34,760 nt of DNA from an uncultured Dehalococcoidia bacterium (GTDB taxonomy: Bacteria > Chloroflexota > Dehalococcoidia > Lucifugimonadales > UBA1127). Within the stretch, counting starts at the first letter, position 1, and every line of letters begins with the position of its first letter. The stretch is taken from NCBI GenBank assembly GCA_913049785.1, contig CAJWXP010000022.1:1-34760 (forward strand). The letters are read 5' to 3'. The notes beneath the pieces are model-generated. The model saw only the letters and a program-made list of their open reading frames with translations. It did no database searches and was not told where the DNA came from. Position numbers and translations under genes: made by a program. Positions 6,491-32,238 of the stretch are shown here, piece by piece.

Positions 6491-7133
6491 GTGGGAAAAT
6501 ATACGTCACAAAACTCGAGGCGGGATGTATTGGCTAACCAGATTGTTTTTCTCCCTGGCGCTGGCGGAAGGCCTGGCTTTTGGAAACCGGCAGCTGACGC
6601 CATCAGTCTACCGGTGGCAAAGGTGCTCATCGGCTGGCCCGGCTTCGGCGATGTTCCGGAAGACCCTGCGGTAATGAAACTCACGGACCTCGCGGACTAT
6701 GTATTCAATCAGGTACAACAGCCCATGTATCTTGTAGCCCAATCAATGGGCGGCGTTGTAGCGATTTTGATGACTCTGAAGCGGCCAAAGCTGATAGAAA
6801 AGCTGGTATTAGTGGGTTCTTCCGGCGGAGTAGACATGGTGCAGTTCAACGGCGAAGACTGGCGCGCAGACTACCTCAAGGAGTTGCCAGAAACAGCCCC
6901 CACCTGGTTCGTCGACGATAGGACAGACATCACCCATTCATTGAATTCCATTCAGGCGCCCACCCTACTTATGCGCGGGCAGGACGACCATATTCAGCCC
7001 CTCTGCTGCGGCTGAATATCTATCTCGCAACATACCAAATGCTCAGTTGCGCACCATTCCCCATGCAGGCCACCTGCTGCCAACAGAGCAACCTGACCAA
7101 GTAGCAGCAAAAATCCAAGCGTTTCTCGTTTGA
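6491..7133 (+). pseudogene. Alpha/beta hydrolase, frameshifted before the catalytic His
   Basis: The first frame (to a TGA at 7013-7015) encodes a fold start IVFLPGAGGRPGFW, the nucleophile elbow AQSMGGVVA (Ser in GxSxGG) and LLMRGQDDHIQP, containing the acid Asp. It then stops. The sequence continues in another frame through EYLSRNIPNAQL, then IPHAGHLLPTEQP, which carries the missing catalytic His, to a natural TGA at 7131-7133. Removing one C from the CCCC run at 6998-7001 restores one continuous protein. The start could be ATG 6491, or TTG 6530, which has GAGG nine bases upstream and begins right before the conserved core. Whether this is a real mutation or a base error is undetermined. 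Confidence 0.8.
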
Positions 7134-7158
7134 CACCCCTATAGGGCCATGCTAGATT
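7130..7158 (+). promoter_or_regulatory. Sigma70-type promoter candidate before the 7.28 kb gene
   Basis: TTGACA at 7130-7135, a 17-base gap, then TAGATT at 7153-7158. It overlaps the end of the hydrolase reading frame. Transcription from it would give a leader of roughly 120 bases before the GTG at 7283. A second candidate -10 (CATACA, 7231-7236) lies closer to the gene. Confidence 0.45.
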
Positions 7159-13347: not shown

Positions 13348-14469
13348 ATGGCTAGAGCCAAAGGCACAATATCCCAGACTGGCCGTGCACCTTATGGATA
13401 TCGGGCCATTAAACGCGCTGACGGCAAACATTGGGAGCAAATTCCCAGCGAAGTTGCAACAGTACGAGAGATGTACGATTTGTCTGCGGCCCAGAACTTC
13501 GGCTTCAAACAAATTGCCGTTACCTTAAATGGTTCCGGGTCTCTAACGCGTAGCGGTACTCAATGGGGAGCGTATACGATTCAGTACATCCTCACCAACG
13601 AATCTCTGGTCGGCACACTCGTAAAACGTGAGTCACCCACCACAAAGGGACACAAAGCGAAAGAGTTGGCAAGAATATCCGATTATTTCCCATCAATCCT
13701 ATCTCAAGATGAATGGGGAAAGCTAGAAGAACGGCTGGCCATCCGGCGGGAACACCCCTGGGGTCGCGTTCAAGGGAGTGGGTTTCTTCTTAGTGGAATA
13801 GCGCGGTGTGGACACTGTGGTGGGTCCATGGTGGGGTGTTATGGTTCCCCGCTAGACGATGGCACCGGGTACAAGCATCTGTACTACCGCTGCTCGAAAG
13901 CCCTCATCTCTAAGGAATTGTGTGAATTCAGACGATTCTACAAGGCGGAAATCATTGAAGACGCGACAGTGGGATTTCTTCGCCAGTTCACTAACCCCTC
14001 GAACATGCAGGAATATCAACATCCGGTTAAAAGTTCAACCGGCCACGTCAATCGATTGAATCGCGAACAGGACAACTCTCAAAATCAAACCCCTGAGGAA
14101 GCTCTCCAAGAACGTCTGGAGATGCTCGATCTAATGGTAATGACAAAGGTATCGTCGAACAGAGCAAGATCTCAGCGGGCACATGGCTCTTTAACGAGGC
14201 AGCAGAAGAACCATTCCATTCAGGCCCCACCAGAGGAGCAACAGATGATTTCAGACACACTTCGAAGGCTAACGTCAAAGGTGGACACATTCTTGGAGGT
14301 TTTGGAGAGTCATGATCTCCGAAATTCGAAGTCATTATTGCAACTCATCCTGAAACAAGTCCGTGTGTATCAAAGAGGCGGTCTAGAGCTGGAGATCAGA
14401 GTGAAAACAAGTGCTGCATGGTCTTTGCAAGGGGTTGTCGGTGTCCCACCAAGTCACGACTCTATTTGA
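13348..14469 (+). pseudogene. Serine recombinase lacking its catalytic resolvase domain
   Basis: 373 residues open. TGRAPYGYR near residues 11-19 begins the Recombinase domain (PF07508-like). LSGIARCGHCGGSMVG near 148-163 with later YYRCSK and a further Cys forms the zinc ribbon (PF13408-like). A polar linker and a C-terminal helical part ending VYQRGGLELEIRV follow, as in large serine integrases. The N-terminal domain of about 140 residues with the nucleophilic Ser is absent. In frame, a TGA lies nine codons before the ATG, and none of the three frames in the 117 bases after the DUF3303 gene shows a resolvase domain. No ribosome site precedes the ATG. Best read as a 5'-deleted integrase remnant. 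Confidence 0.8.
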
Positions 14470-15325: not shown

Positions 15326-16565
15326 AGTGTCATCCCCTCCCTTCTCCATCCTCTGATGGTTTGGTTCGCACTCAAGAGTCTGGTTACCAATAGATTCTGA
15401 AGTGTTTCAACTCTTCCCCGCAGCTCTCTAAATCGAATCCCTCAAGCCACCAAACCAGAATCAGAGCACCTTTTTATTAAATTGAATTGCGTCATTCCAA
15501 TATCGGAAGTTTCGCTTGTTGAGTGACCAAGCAAAATTACGAATAATTGTTAGTGGCGCTCAACGTTACGTACCATCGCCCGGTCCTTCTACCTAAACAC
15601 CTAGGTGGTCGTCACTGTTCACGGCAAAGAATGGGCACTGAAAGCAACTATGAACGTCGATCAAAGCTTTCGACAAGTATTGGCCGAATGTCGATCCAGT
15701 TTTCGAAAGTGCAACTTTGATCTTGGTTAATACTTCAAGAACACAAGAACCCATAATGAAACCACGATAGTTAGGCCCAAGACTGATCCTATCCGCACCA
15801 TCAGTTTTGGTGTCAGACCGGGTGTTAATCGTTGCACTCCTCGGAGCAAGCCGACTCCCTTCCGCTCGTCCTTGATGCAAAGACTCAAATCGAACCACTT
15901 CATCGCAAATTGCCTGCGTAGAAGCTGCAACAAATATGATTGGCCATAAAAATTAAGCTTCACCAATAACCAGTTCAATTCGTATAGCTTGAAGCCTTAG
16001 TCCCCGTGCACGGTAGCGTAAGGAAAATCTTTTCGCACCTTGCTAATCTAACACAGTAGTCGGAGTCATCACCTAGGAGAGGAACGAAACCATAATGCGC
16101 ATACACACAACGAGGACGAAGTTAAACGTTCGACATTTTTGAAAAAAGTCATCATTCGTATTTCGATCATGTTGCGGTTAGATACACTGCTTTTTGTACT
16201 GTCACTCAGCAATTCTATCCTGTTAACGTTCTACTGTCCTACTGTGGCCCTATCTAAAGTAACAGACAGCCAACTGAACTAAAGCGGCTCCGCTCAGCTA
16301 GTCAATCCCCATCCAAACTTACTCTCTACATAGCGTTCTGCGCATAATTTACTCGGTTATAAGGGAAATCGATTGTTAGTGACTTTCGCATACTGACCCC
16401 TCAGTTCGAACCGAAGGGAATAAATTCCGGTGTTCTTACGCCGTGGCGAATTCGTAGCCAGATCGTTCACGATTGGCATTCGACCTGATGATTGGTAGAA
16501 TCAGTAATTTGAGGTCAGATGAAAACGCAGTTTACAAACCAAACCGCTCCTCGAAAGGTTCAAAG
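15326..16565. other. 1.2-kb AT-rich region without a supported gene
   Basis: Composition is visibly AT-richer than the flanks and stops are frequent in all frames. The longest frames are on the minus strand. At 15727-15978 the frame has a hydrophobic C-terminal segment and an internal ATG that could encode 58 residues; at 15593-15898 a frame overlaps it. Neither has a good ribosome site or a family I recognise. No tRNA, rRNA or terminator was seen. It may be decayed DNA at the left side of the sugar-nucleotide island, or a long upstream region for the gene at 16566. Confidence 0.4.
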
Positions 16566-17750
16566 ATGGAAAGTATTACTCAGGCTGTTGTTTTAGCTGC
16601 TGGTCGGGGTGAGCGTCTCTATCCATTGACGGCGAAGCGACCCAAAGTCATGTTGTGCGTCGCTAACAAACCCATTCTTGAATACGTAATCGATGCGTTG
16701 TCCTCTTCAGGTATAATCGATTTGATCATCATAGTTGGGTATTACTCTGAAAAAGTTCAAGAATACTTCGGATCAGGAGCTAATTTCGGAGTCAATATCA
16801 GATATTTGAAACAGGACAGCCAATTGGGCACATCCCATGCACTCTCGGTCGCAAGTGAGCTTTTGGAAGACCATTTCTTGGTCGTTCCAGCTGACAACAT
16901 TATTGATGCTGATATTCTCTCCAACATTCATACTACGAGCAGAAATGCAGCTTTGCTTGTATCAAATACGATGGGATCGCAGTATGGGGTAGCGATGGTA
17001 AAGAACGATTGTGTATTAGGCATTCTTGAAAAGCCAGAGGGAGTCGAAACAGGCCTAGTAAGCACAGGAATCTACAAATTTAGTAATGAAATTATCCCTT
17101 ACGTTCTAGATGAGTTGGATTTACCTACTGCCATCAATAGGTTCATCAACGATGGCTTTGAGGTCACTGCGGTGCGTGGACATGGCATATGGTCGGATGC
17201 AATTGATGCCTCGGATTTGATTCACGTAAACGCGGAGGTATCGACAAAGATAGAACCCCGGTTGGCCGGAACCATTGAAGACGGTGTATATATCACAGGG
17301 AACGTTTCAATCGGAATCAATTCTATTATTAGGAGCGGCTGCTATTTGGTTGGACCAGTCATTGTCGGAGACGGCTGTGAAATTGGTCCCAATTCAGTGT
17401 TGATGCCTTATTCAAGTCTAGGCCATCAAGTCACGGTCGAGGCGTTTGGATTGATTAAAAACAGTATCATCGGCAACTCCGTTCATATTAAGAGCCATTC
17501 CTCCGTTATTGACTCTGTAATTCTGCATGGTTGTTCCTTCGGATCTTTTTTTCACGCATCGGCGGGACCGAATATATACAATAGTGAATCTAGCGAACGA
17601 AACGTCAATTTAGGAGCAGTAGTCGGGGAATCAGTAAGAGTTGGATCCCACGTGACAATTGAAGCAGGGTGTCACATCGGACCTGACACTCGCATTGGAT
17701 CTAACAATATCGTGCGAAATAGCGTTCCGGCGAATACGTTAATCCTTTAA
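16566..17750 (+). CDS. Sugar-1-phosphate nucleotidylyltransferase with left-handed beta-helix domain (GlmU-like)
   Basis: 394 residues from the ATG at 16566, just before the conserved core; an earlier in-frame ATG at 16473 adds 31 atypical residues. AVVLAAGRGERLYPLTAKRP at 7-26 is the nucleotidyltransferase signature, and PADNIIDADI carries the metal Asp. From about residue 245 the hexapeptide-type repeats (GVYITGNVSIG, VGPVIVGDGCEIGPNS, VRVGSHVTIEAGCHIGPDTRIG) form a left-handed helix as in acyltransferases. The layout resembles archaeal/thermophile bifunctional GlmU-type enzymes that make UDP-GlcNAc, more than E. coli GlmU. The neighbouring glmS, 15 bases on, supports that pathway. Product specificity is inferred. 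Confidence 0.85.
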   Translation: MESITQAVVLAAGRGERLYPLTAKRPKVMLCVANKPILEYVIDALSSSGIIDLIIIVGYYSEKVQEYFGSGANFGVNIRYLKQDSQLGTSHALSVASELLEDHFLVVPADNIIDADILSNIHTTSRNAALLVSNTMGSQYGVAMVKNDCVLGILEKPEGVETGLVSTGIYKFSNEIIPYVLDELDLPTAINRFINDGFEVTAVRGHGIWSDAIDASDLIHVNAEVSTKIEPRLAGTIEDGVYITGNVSIGINSIIRSGCYLVGPVIVGDGCEIGPNSVLMPYSSLGHQVTVEAFGLIKNSIIGNSVHIKSHSSVIDSVILHGCSFGSFFHASAGPNIYNSESSERNVNLGAVVGESVRVGSHVTIEAGCHIGPDTRIGSNNIVRNSVPANTLIL

Positions 17751-17765
17751 GTTTGGAGTGGGAAA

Positions 17766-19559
17766 TTGTGTGGCATATTAGGTTGTTTTGGTTCTGAGAA
17801 TCCGTATTCATTAATCCGCTCATCTCTACAGCGCCTAGAATACAGGGGATACGATTCGTGCGGAGTAGCTATCTCCGATCGTGACAAAATACACTCCTAC
17901 AAAGTCAGTGGGCCGGTCTCGGGCCTCATCCAACGCGCCGAAATATCGGGAGCGATCAGTGGATTAGGTCACACACGCTGGGCTACCGTTGGGACCCCAT
18001 CAGCCGAGAATGCTCATCCTTTCATGGATTGCAACGCAGATATAGCAATTGTCCACAATGGTGATTTGGACAATTTTATCGAACTCAGGGAATCGCTGCT
18101 ACTGAGGGGCCACCATTTTTCCTCTGACACTGATAGTGAAGTGTTCGCACACCTAATTGAGGAATCTGAATCTAATTTAGAACCCATTCAAAGAGTCAAT
18201 AGCATTCTTTCAAAGGTGACGGGGTCATATGCCCTTGGTGTTCTTTTTAGGTCGAGTGGTGTCATCGTTGGCGCCAGGCATGAAAGCCCGTTGGTTATTG
18301 GGACAAATTCTTCGGGTGGTTTCCTGTGCTCTGACGTGCATGCTATCGCACCTTATGTGGATCATGTCATACATCTAGAAGACGGCGATTTAGCCCTCCT
18401 GGATACAACTGGAGTATCACTTTTCCACGGAGACAAGCCCGTTACTCGTACCTCTCATCCGGTCTCATGGGATCCTGCCGAGGTCGATAAAGCCGGTTTC
18501 GATCACTATTTTCTTAAAGAAGTCTTTGAGCAGCCCAAAATCATCCGCAATTCATTGGAAGGCCGAGTAAGGTTGACGAATCCAACGATCGATTTAGCCA
18601 ATGAATTACCGAACATGCCTATTACAGGCAAAATTGGAGTTTTTGGTTGTGGGTCAGCTTTCAATGCAGGATTATTGGGGGCAACCATTGTCTCTGAATT
18701 AATTGATCAGGAAGTTGGTGCACATGTATCTTCAAATTACAACCGCCGCCTATTGACTAAAGATTTGGCGCTCGCAGTATTCCTGTCACAATCTGGGGAG
18801 ACTGCTGACACTCTGGCAACACTCAAAGTTGCCAAATCTGCGGGAATTAAAACTATTGCAATCACAAACGTTCCCAACAGTTCAATTACGCGGCTGGCCG
18901 AATTCACTCTTCTGAATAAAGCTGGTTTAGAAGAAAGTGTAGGTGCTTCCAAAACATTCACCTCTCAAGTCATTGATTTCGTTCTTTTGTGTCTTTGGCT
19001 AAACCAGACTGATATCTCGTCGTTGAACGATACTATTGTCGACATGCATAATCTGTCGAACCATTTGGATCACATTCTCGACACATATCAATCAATGGAG
19101 GATATTGCTCTGACAATTAGCAATGCATCTTCGATTTTCATCATTGGCAAGAATCTGAGCTATCCGATTGCCCTGGAAGCAAGCTTAAAATTCAAGGAAT
19201 TAGCCTATATCCATGCTGAGGCGATAATGTCTGGGGAAATAAAGCATGGGACTTTCGCACTCTTGACAAGTGAGACGCCGGTTATTGCAATTGCAAAAAG
19301 CGGCGATCAATATAAGGATGTAGTGCAAACGGTTAGGGAAATAAAAGCGAGGAATGCCCCGGTCATCGTGATAACCGATCAGGCAGATGCATTTTTGAAC
19401 GTAGCTGATGCTGTAGTTACGGTAGAATCAAGTCTCCCTATTGGTTTTTCACTAGAGGCATCAATGATATTCCAGCTTCTTGCCTATCGTGCTGCGATTG
19501 CTAAAGGATGTCCTATTGACAGGCCTCGCAATTTGGCAAAAAGCGTGACGGTGAAGTAA
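17766..19559 (+). CDS. glmS: Glutamine--fructose-6-phosphate aminotransferase (isomerising)
   Basis: 597 residues. Start is a TTG at 17766 with GGAG seven bases upstream; the next codon gives Cys2, the N-terminal nucleophile of the glutaminase domain. LEYRGYDSCG, GHTRWATVG and VHNGDLDN (near 100) are class-II glutamine amidotransferase motifs. HYFLKEVFEQP near residue 245 starts the two SIS domains; SQSGETADTL binds sugar phosphate, and the C-terminus RPRNLAKSVTVK is typical. It makes glucosamine-6-phosphate, the first step to UDP-GlcNAc for peptidoglycan or polysaccharide. It probably forms an operon with the nucleotidyltransferase before it. AT-richer than the housekeeping genes elsewhere in the window. 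Confidence 0.97.
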   Translation: MCGILGCFGSENPYSLIRSSLQRLEYRGYDSCGVAISDRDKIHSYKVSGPVSGLIQRAEISGAISGLGHTRWATVGTPSAENAHPFMDCNADIAIVHNGDLDNFIELRESLLLRGHHFSSDTDSEVFAHLIEESESNLEPIQRVNSILSKVTGSYALGVLFRSSGVIVGARHESPLVIGTNSSGGFLCSDVHAIAPYVDHVIHLEDGDLALLDTTGVSLFHGDKPVTRTSHPVSWDPAEVDKAGFDHYFLKEVFEQPKIIRNSLEGRVRLTNPTIDLANELPNMPITGKIGVFGCGSAFNAGLLGATIVSELIDQEVGAHVSSNYNRRLLTKDLALAVFLSQSGETADTLATLKVAKSAGIKTIAITNVPNSSITRLAEFTLLNKAGLEESVGASKTFTSQVIDFVLLCLWLNQTDISSLNDTIVDMHNLSNHLDHILDTYQSMEDIALTISNASSIFIIGKNLSYPIALEASLKFKELAYIHAEAIMSGEIKHGTFALLTSETPVIAIAKSGDQYKDVVQTVREIKARNAPVIVITDQADAFLNVADAVVTVESSLPIGFSLEASMIFQLLAYRAAIAKGCPIDRPRNLAKSVTVK

Positions 19560-27360: not shown

Positions 27361-27382
27361 CTTGTTATGCTAGCTGTTTCAC

Positions 27383-28135
27383 CTAGACCTTAAATTCCAC
27401 CACCAACATGCTCTCTAACCAATCTTTGGTCTCGCCTACCAGCTGCCCATCAGTATCAAACATATAACCACCACCAGGGAAATCTTCATCCACTGTACGT
27501 CCCGCTTGGGTAGCTACGGCAATGTGGAGATGGTATTTCCTTGCAAACTCGTCTAGTTGAGTTCAACATTTCTCACGCCACCACCCGTGGCCTGACTCCC
27601 AGTTCCTTGATTCCTGCGGCCCGTCCAGCCCTGGGGCTGAGGGTAGGAGCACCACTTGCGCTCCCATAGATGCGTATTGCTCAAAAAGACCCCCGTTGTC
27701 GATGTCAGCGCAAATCGCCAGGCCAAAACTGACACCACCATGCGTACAAACCAAGGGTTCTGAGCCTGATGCAAACCAGTCTAACTCATCAGGAGCTACG
27801 TTGTTCTTCCGGTACACCCCAAGAAGTTCTCCGTCCCGGATCACCCCTTGGGAAATGAACGGCATCCCATCCGGGTTCGCCTCGACGATACCGGCAACAA
27901 TCGTCACATGGCTTGTTCTTGAAGATTCGAACAGCGGAGTAAGTCTCGAGTCGTTCCAAGTGACGATTTCATCTTGGTGCTTCGGGGGGTCAAGGTAGCC
28001 GGTGATGCTCATCTCAGGGAAGCACACAAGGTCAGCGTCTGCGTCCGTAGCCTGAGCAACGTACTCGGCAGTCCGGGCCAGGTTCTGGGTGATTTGTGCC
28101 TTTCCACAGACCATCTGGACCAAGGCTACCTTCAC
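27383..28135 (-). pseudogene. Carbon-nitrogen hydrolase (nitrilase superfamily) with an in-frame UGA
   Basis: The frame starts at the GTG at 28135 (GGAGGGG upstream) and encodes VKVALVQMVCGKAQI. The catalytic triad is visible as Glu in CFPEMSITGY, Lys in VYRKNNV and Cys in GLAICADID. At 27565-27563 there is a TGA after WREKC. The same frame then continues 59 codons (TQLDEFARKYHLHIAVATQA, then GRTVDEDFPGGGYMFDTDG) to a normal TAG at 27383, giving the usual length of about 250. The UGA probably replaces CGA (Arg). Lesion, base error or recoding cannot be separated here. The start lies 16 bases after the DUF4392 gene, so an operon is likely. Confidence 0.85.
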
Positions 28136-28151
28136 ATCGCCCCTCCAGGCC

Positions 28152-29014
28152 CTAGCCACCCGCTGAGATGATGCCGTGCCTGTGTAGCAGGCTATGAAGC
28201 GCCTCCAGCGTCTGGCCGTTCTCTTCAAGGGAGAAGCCATCAACGGCCGGAACGGGTTTCCCCGCCTTTGCGTCAATGGCGCCGTTGCCGACTATTGTGC
28301 GGATGACGTCTTCCTCCTCCTCAATAGAAGGAAGCAGGTTCCACCCCGCCAGGAGCGATAGAGCAGCAATCAGGCCGTACCCACCCCAGTTGGATACGCT
28401 GGCGATCACAAGTTCAGACACGGTGGTCATAACGGGATCGTTGGGGAGGGCTTCCACCGCCGCGATCTGCTCGGTCAGATTGCCCATGCCGATCTCATTG
28501 CCGCCATCGCCGATACCGATGGTATTGTCGTGGTGTTTGAAGAGGTAATCCAGCTTGGCATGGTACTCGGAGGTGTCCTCGCCCCTGGCGTTCAGGTACC
28601 GGCCGGGAGTGGTGAAGCTGCATCGCTCTATAGCGATAAAAAGGGACGGTTGAAGCTGCTCCAACAGGTCCACAGCAAAGGCCTCGCTGACCTCAGCGTC
28701 AGCCATGGGGAACTCGACGACGTCGCCGCATCGACCAGTCCCTCGAACAAGGGTGTGCTGTAGTGGTCGCTCACGTAGGTGACCTGGAAGCCCATCGCCT
28801 GGAGCGCGCGACCGATGAAGTATGCTCCCGGCGGGCCGTCCGTCTCTGATGCTCCAGCGCGTGTGATGTAGAAGCCCGTAGCTATCAGTGCGCGGCCGGG
28901 GGCGTTGAGGATGAGCTTGGCGGCCTGGGTGCAGAAATCGTCTGCCAGGAACGGGCGTAACTCCGCCATGCTACACCAGTCTCTGCTCAGGATAATGTCT
29001 TTGATCTCACTCAT
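28152..29014 (-). pseudogene. DUF4392 protein (D-glutamate cyclase-like), frameshifted
   Basis: From the ATG at 29014 the first frame gives MSEIKDIILSRDWCSMAELR, LIATGFYITRAGASETDGPP and VTYVSDHYS. From about 28722-28732 the family sequence moves to another frame: DVVEFPMADAEVSEAFAVDL, IAIERCSFT, GEDTSEYHAKLDYLF and the signature GIGDGGNEIGMGN. The span (863 bases) is one base short of an open frame, so a missing base explains it. Intact length would be about 287, as in the family. Members include D-glutamate cyclase. The ribosome site at 29014 is weak. It precedes the damaged carbon-nitrogen hydrolase in the same direction. Confidence 0.85.
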
Positions 29015-31719: not shown

Positions 31720-32238
31720 GTGCTGTGTGATGACGTAAGTATGCCGGATTTCAGTTGGTGGGGCAGTTTAACCAGCATAGCTGGGATATTCGTTTCGTTC
31801 TTCGGCCTGGCTTGGGCAATTCGGAGGGCTGGTAAAGCACAATCCGCCGCACTCGCAGCCGCAACCGCAGCAACTGAGGCCCGTTCGGAAATTACGGATG
31901 TTTTGTATTTCCGCGAATTAGAACGCGCAATAGGGATTATTGAAAGACTCAAAAGCTGGCATAGAGATTCCAAATGGGACTTAACAATTGAACAATACTC
32001 TATCCTCCGAGCAGCGTTAGCCTCTTTAAACGAACACCATCTGCCAAACAATCCGAAACTGGGAGAATCTCTTCAATCCGCAATTGTCCAGGTACGCGTA
32101 ATTGAGGAGTTAGTAGAAAAGGCAATACTAGGATCAGTAAACAACCAATCCGGACATCGTAAAAATAAATTCTCAGCTAACCAAGATCCAAACTCAATTA
32201 CAGATCGCTCCTTCTGGGGTAAAGCTATAGCTGTGTAA
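31720..32238 (+). CDS. Membrane-anchored hypothetical protein, first gene of an AT-rich pair
   Basis: About 165-172 residues; GTG at 31720 or ATG at 31741 may start it, neither with a clear ribosome site. From MPDFSWWGSLTSIAGIFVSF a single hydrophobic helix spans about 20 residues. An Ala-rich helical linker (KAQSAALAAATAATEARSE) and a charged helical domain (FRELERAIGIIERLKSWHRD; YSILRAALASLNEHHLP; VRVIEELVEKAI) follow. This one-helix-plus-Ala-linker plan is seen in many uncharacterised proteins near defence or accessory genes, but I recognise no family. Codon use is AT-richer than the neighbours. The second gene follows after 12 bases. Confidence 0.6.
   Translation: MLCDDVSMPDFSWWGSLTSIAGIFVSFFGLAWAIRRAGKAQSAALAAATAATEARSEITDVLYFRELERAIGIIERLKSWHRDSKWDLTIEQYSILRAALASLNEHHLPNNPKLGESLQSAIVQVRVIEELVEKAILGSVNNQSGHRKNKFSANQDPNSITDRSFWGKAIAV

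Follow-up and report, generated by a model that had tools for sequence, protein, structure and literature searches.

Several described systems resemble the locus studied here. Bacterial selenoprotein genes carry a UGA within the reading frame and belong to genomes that decode selenocysteine (Sec); at redox sites Sec and Cys replace one another in evolution, as stated in one part of PMC1794560. Where tRNA-Trp reads UGA, the features named in a section of PMC13092985 are a UCA anticodon, a 4-bp anticodon stem, and A9 or G24 changes. UGA is also read through at a basal level: for one reporter, a passage of PMC9481147 gives about 12% in E. coli and 0.08% and 0.04% in two Pseudomonas species.

The window (the whole 34.8-kb stretch of DNA that was analyzed) contains a gene of the carbon-nitrogen hydrolase/nitrilase superfamily (PF00795), hereafter the amidase gene, that shares the triad, C-terminal block, length, and predicted fold of other members and differs from them by one premature TGA, at codon 191. 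Our preferred account, to which we give a probability of about 0.5, is that the TGA is the lesion of a nascent pseudogene, a real and very recent nonsense change. A TGA of this kind is an ordinary sort of finding, already known; the locus would serve mainly as a caution: even where a genome is a true Sec decoder, a UGA inside a reading frame may be nothing more than an ordinary lesion.

A carbon-nitrogen hydrolase gene with one in-frame TGA

The open reading frame begins at a GTG, runs for 190 codons to the TGA, and continues for 59 codons to a TAG (Table 1). This reading of the minus strand agrees with the first-pass annotation, which had reported a single TGA followed by 59 family-like codons and a stop. 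The part before the stop matched Pfam CN_hydrolase (PF00795; E 1.6e-22, profile positions 1-184 of 256), and a Pfam search with the tail alone matched no family. Alignment with five relatives found E41, K110, and C142 intact, which we take to be the Glu-Lys-Cys triad of the family and which had earlier been described as intact, and located the TQAG-T-DEDFPG block and the remaining C-terminus in the tail. Identity to 34 homologues was 0.44-0.62 in the tail and 0.38-0.55 in the part before the stop. The gene is a member of the carbon-nitrogen hydrolase superfamily. It had also been allowed that homologues might end at the stop, which would make the tail a chance reading frame; none of 48 homologues stops there, and this origin was ruled out because the tail aligns with the family.

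The nearest sequence found was L060, from a SAR202 MAG, at 55% identity. An NCBIfam search with the amidase reached no equivalog cut-off and thereby assigned no substrate. The amidase domain of glutamine-dependent NAD+ synthetase provided both the best solved relative (5kha, E 8.7e-21) and the best NCBIfam model, the latter with a score far under the cut-off; unlike that enzyme, the window gene stands alone, with no synthetase domain. A plasmid tblastn search with the amidase returned 78 records, several of them annotated as NAD+ synthase; none reached 60% identity, and the best stood at about 30%. In our literature search no paper was recognized as dealing with this gene. Third-position GC was 0.62 before the stop and 0.45 in the 59 codons after it, figures to which we gave no weight.

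Table 1. Positions, in window coordinates, of the amidase gene, its parts, and adjoining features.
Feature	Position	Strand	Basis
Amidase gene (carbon-nitrogen hydrolase, nitrilase superfamily), interrupted by one TGA in frame	27383-28135	-	ORF, Pfam, homologue alignment
In-frame TGA, codon 191	27563-27565	-	Hypervariable column, middle of predicted helix (residues 179-201)
Tail of 59 codons, homologous to the C-terminal part of relatives	27386-27562	-	Alignment, predicted fold (last strands)
GGAGG, ribosome-binding-site-like	28142-28146	-	Six bases 5' of the GTG start (sequence)
Stretch of about 815 bases, flanked by two blocks that align with G003 (about 34 bases there) and holding the amidase gene	27371-28186		Alignment
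D-glutamate cyclase-like gene (PF14336), one-base deletion near 28727	28152-29014	-	Pfam, congener comparison

A structure was predicted for the read-through protein, with W placed at residue 191 and 39 sequences as input, and the mean pLDDT was 96.8. In this model codon 191 lies inside a helix, and the tail supplies the strands at 204-213, 218-220, 224-226, 232-235, and 242-247. Because translation ending at the TGA would stop mid-helix and leave out the last strands of the fold, the 190-residue product should not fold normally and is presumably no active enzyme.

Codon 191 in homologues of the amidase

A single-protein query against genome contigs found no relative, and an alignment used as the query (A1) found 80 loci. 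We aligned 48 of these (L060-L107), excluding the 32 most distant. L093, L094, and L097 were left out of the entropy ranking (45 homologues) and dropped from the comparison of conserved positions and tail identity, for which 34 homologues were chosen by identity.

The homologue alignment, which the first-pass annotation had proposed, showed codon 191 to be hypervariable: 11 residue types occur there (I, Q, M, L, R, K, F, E, H, W, and V), with Trp in one of the 48 homologues and Arg in five, and the column ranked 10 of 250 by entropy. Cys was found at codon 191 in none of the 48, and the column directly before it, 190, holds Cys in 43. Judged from these columns, the site is nonfunctional. The CGA-to-TGA origin suggested earlier is possible and unproven, as the varied residues make Leu (TTA) or Trp (TGG) equally suitable.

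No homologue has a stop at codon 191 (0/48), and 45 have no in-frame stop anywhere, so that the window gene shows the disrupted frame with intact relatives by which pseudogenes are recognized. The other three (L083, L093, and L099) have in-frame stops at other sites, those of L093 and L099 inside frameshifted stretches; the homologue from Fodinicola feengrottensis (L099:3001-3708) is open solely by way of two frame changes. One more homologue, in G223, has clearly decayed, with stops and a Lys where the catalytic Glu should be. The family is thus disrupted now and then, at differing sites. The amidase also has a homologue in the order-mate G388, with the same match as in a Dehalococcoidia MAG (L096).

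Among 60 strongly conserved positions, lying on both sides of the stop, none is changed in the window amidase, which is also true of 12 of the 34 homologues. Relaxed constraint, another mark of a pseudogene, was thus not seen at these positions; it is expected only in an older one. With all of them intact, either the stop is erroneous or very recent, or it is read through. In a test that was chosen post hoc, with the site already known, one of the 72 other codons that lie one step from a stop had a column entropy as high as that of codon 191.

Gene neighborhood and other single-base lesions

The genome of the window was assembled into 77 contigs totaling 2.15 Mb, and it is the only one of the six family genomes searched that has the amidase gene. 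The closest relative, G003, whose rpoD is 94% identical, keeps rpoD and the D-glutamate cyclase gene in the same order; between these two genes, three other congeners have a gap of about 3 to 5 kb. Its absence from all five other family genomes and, in G003, from the syntenic location marks the amidase gene as accessory. It would have been gained by the lineage of the window, or lost from the congeners, between rpoD and the D-glutamate cyclase gene.

The D-glutamate cyclase gene lies directly upstream, and its TAG precedes the amidase start by 16 bases. Both halves of the cyclase gene share one frame in 4/4 congeners, and its pN/pS against G003 is 0.15-0.16, like that of intact genes. Two plus-strand genes are likewise frameshifted relative to G003: an alpha/beta hydrolase (6491-7135) has one extra base near 6988, after which its C-terminus continues in another frame, and an unnamed gene (31720-32238) matches G003 at about 70% identity as far as residue 129-136 and then runs out of frame (+1 near 32115-32139). 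Together with the TGA, these frameshifts give four genes in the window with one single-base lesion each, all otherwise clean. The frameshift in the cyclase gene and the two others, which were absent from the first-pass annotation, shift the odds toward a lesion or an error, and four one-base lesions in otherwise clean genes favor either an error or very recent decay.

In return, no sense gene was found broken in the syntenic stretches of G003. Nineteen window genes (about 15.5 kb) are intact in comparison with G003, namely dnaG, rpoD, pheS, part of pheT, and 15 others. The broken genes are accessory or belong to the faster-evolving, less conserved ones, a grouping that was made after the fact.

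Elsewhere in the window, a recombinase gene (13348-14469, plus strand) matched a zinc-ribbon domain and no resolvase domain and is possibly the remnant of a mobile element. A glmU/glmS-like pair (16473-19559, plus strand) is only 40-47% identical to G003 and was perhaps acquired; the third-position GC of glmS is low (0.42).

Recent nonsense change or assembly error

Several lines of evidence point to a nascent pseudogene lesion. The site is nonfunctional and carries a stop in none of the 48 homologues, and no recoding signal accompanies it, given the lack of a SECIS-like hairpin, the canonical tRNA-Trp(CCA), the presence of RF2, and the use of UGA as a stop (see below). The gene is accessory and its adjacent gene is frameshifted; more broadly, the broken genes are accessory or faster-evolving while the 19 compared genes are open. 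The predicted model cut at residue 191 ends mid-helix and loses five strands, and the family is disrupted in other genomes as well (3/48 homologues and the decayed one in G223). A very recent nonsense change at codon 191 would have left a 190-residue product without the last strands, and the amidase gene and the freshly frameshifted D-glutamate cyclase gene, apparently a two-gene unit, would now be a nascent pseudogene pair. Recent bacterial pseudogenes share with this locus the single lesion in an accessory gene, the lesioned neighbor, and the broken homologues elsewhere; the window amidase differs from them in having neither a second lesion nor any loss of conserved residues. A biological origin of the change, as opposed to an assembly error, has in our judgment about even odds. 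Since there is no sign of age, with 0/60 positions changed and a cyclase pN/pS of 0.15-0.16, an error or readthrough would fit equally well.

The close rival is an erroneous base or a misassembly, the assembly being fragmented, in which case codon 191 would be a sense codon and the amidase ordinary and working; we regard this as quite possible, though short of probable. It accords with the four genes that have exactly one single-base lesion each (the TGA, -1 near 28727, +1 near 6988, and +1 near 32115-32139), with the lack of a reciprocal break in the sense genes of the syntenic G003 stretches, and with the retention of every conserved amidase position. It has to be set against the 19 intact genes, which carry no lesion over about 15.5 kb, and against the concentration of breaks in the less conserved genes, post hoc though that grouping is. 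Moreover, about 1 in 20 substitutions makes a stop, so that a single error yielding a stop would lead one to expect many others that are silent.

Possible readthrough or reassignment of UGA

Low-level readthrough of the UGA by the ordinary tRNA-Trp, where a little full-length amidase would suffice and the gene would still be under selection, seems to us improbable. The 60 unchanged positions support it mildly, as does the position of the stop in a column that ranks among the most tolerant, which is what readthrough predicts (a post hoc test). Homologues with Trp (one) and Arg (five) at codon 191, and a basal UGA readthrough that, in the passage of PMC9481147 cited above, varies widely between species, are also in its favor. 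However, no suppressor feature was evident: an ARAGORN search covering most of 45 tRNA places found no tRNA-Trp(UCA), 4-bp anticodon stem, or A9/G24 changes, and the tRNA-Trp that was found has a CCA anticodon, a 5-bp anticodon stem (read by eye), A9, and G24. RF2 is present in the genome (461 bits), UGA occupies codon 191 in 0/48 homologues, and UGA readthrough cannot overcome the frameshift of the neighboring gene. If readthrough did take place, the amidase would illustrate how a leaky stop can keep a gene active.

Slightly harder still to credit is a variant in which the leaky UGA, lying where the helix tolerates variation, would be a natural brake, with the amidase produced at a low level via readthrough by tRNA-Trp and still under selection; the same cell would then use UGA for this purpose, for Sec, and for termination. 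A code in which UGA means Trp was ruled out by the canonical tRNA-Trp(CCA), by RF2, and by UGA stops in use, TGA terminating 4 of the 24 listed window ORFs. The earlier suggestion that readthrough or recoding is possible survives for readthrough, at low probability, while Sec and UGA as Trp are rejected.

Selenocysteine

The genome of the window decodes Sec. The first-pass annotation had pointed to tRNA-Sec and SelB, and both were found, at 72.3 bits (cut-off 47; ARAGORN agrees) and 341 bits, respectively. The selD gene (L140:1501-2421, minus strand) has one in-frame TGA in the context HCAG-TGA-AAK, presumably the usual Sec site of SelD, and with tRNA-Sec and SelB it forms a positive control. 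The hairpin 3' of the selD TGA has 7-8 bp (z -1.70, 15/200 shuffles as good). At the amidase, where a stem-loop just after the codon had been suggested as a sign of recoding, simple folding gave no SECIS-like hairpin at the needed distance, and the best structure was a 6-bp hairpin overlapping the stop codon itself (z -0.75, 43/200 shuffles as good).

Although tRNA-Sec and SelB are present and selD contains a TGA in frame, insertion of Sec at codon 191 is exceedingly improbable, because no homologue has Cys at the site (0/48), the Cys column being the neighboring 190 (43/48), and because the hairpin is missing, in contrast with the genome's own selD. The amidase gene thus has in common with bacterial selenoprotein genes an in-frame UGA in a Sec-decoding genome, and differs from them in lacking both Cys in homologues at the site and a SECIS-like hairpin. 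Sec had earlier been doubted on the ground that the residue is not catalytic, and the Cys count and the selD comparison make that doubt stronger than the first argument alone. The homologue column and the genome's own selD, taken together, separate Sec from an ordinary lesion. Matches to Fdh-alpha in this genome were free of in-frame stops, and a TAG inside the EF-Tu match was merely the normal stop of the EF-Tu gene.
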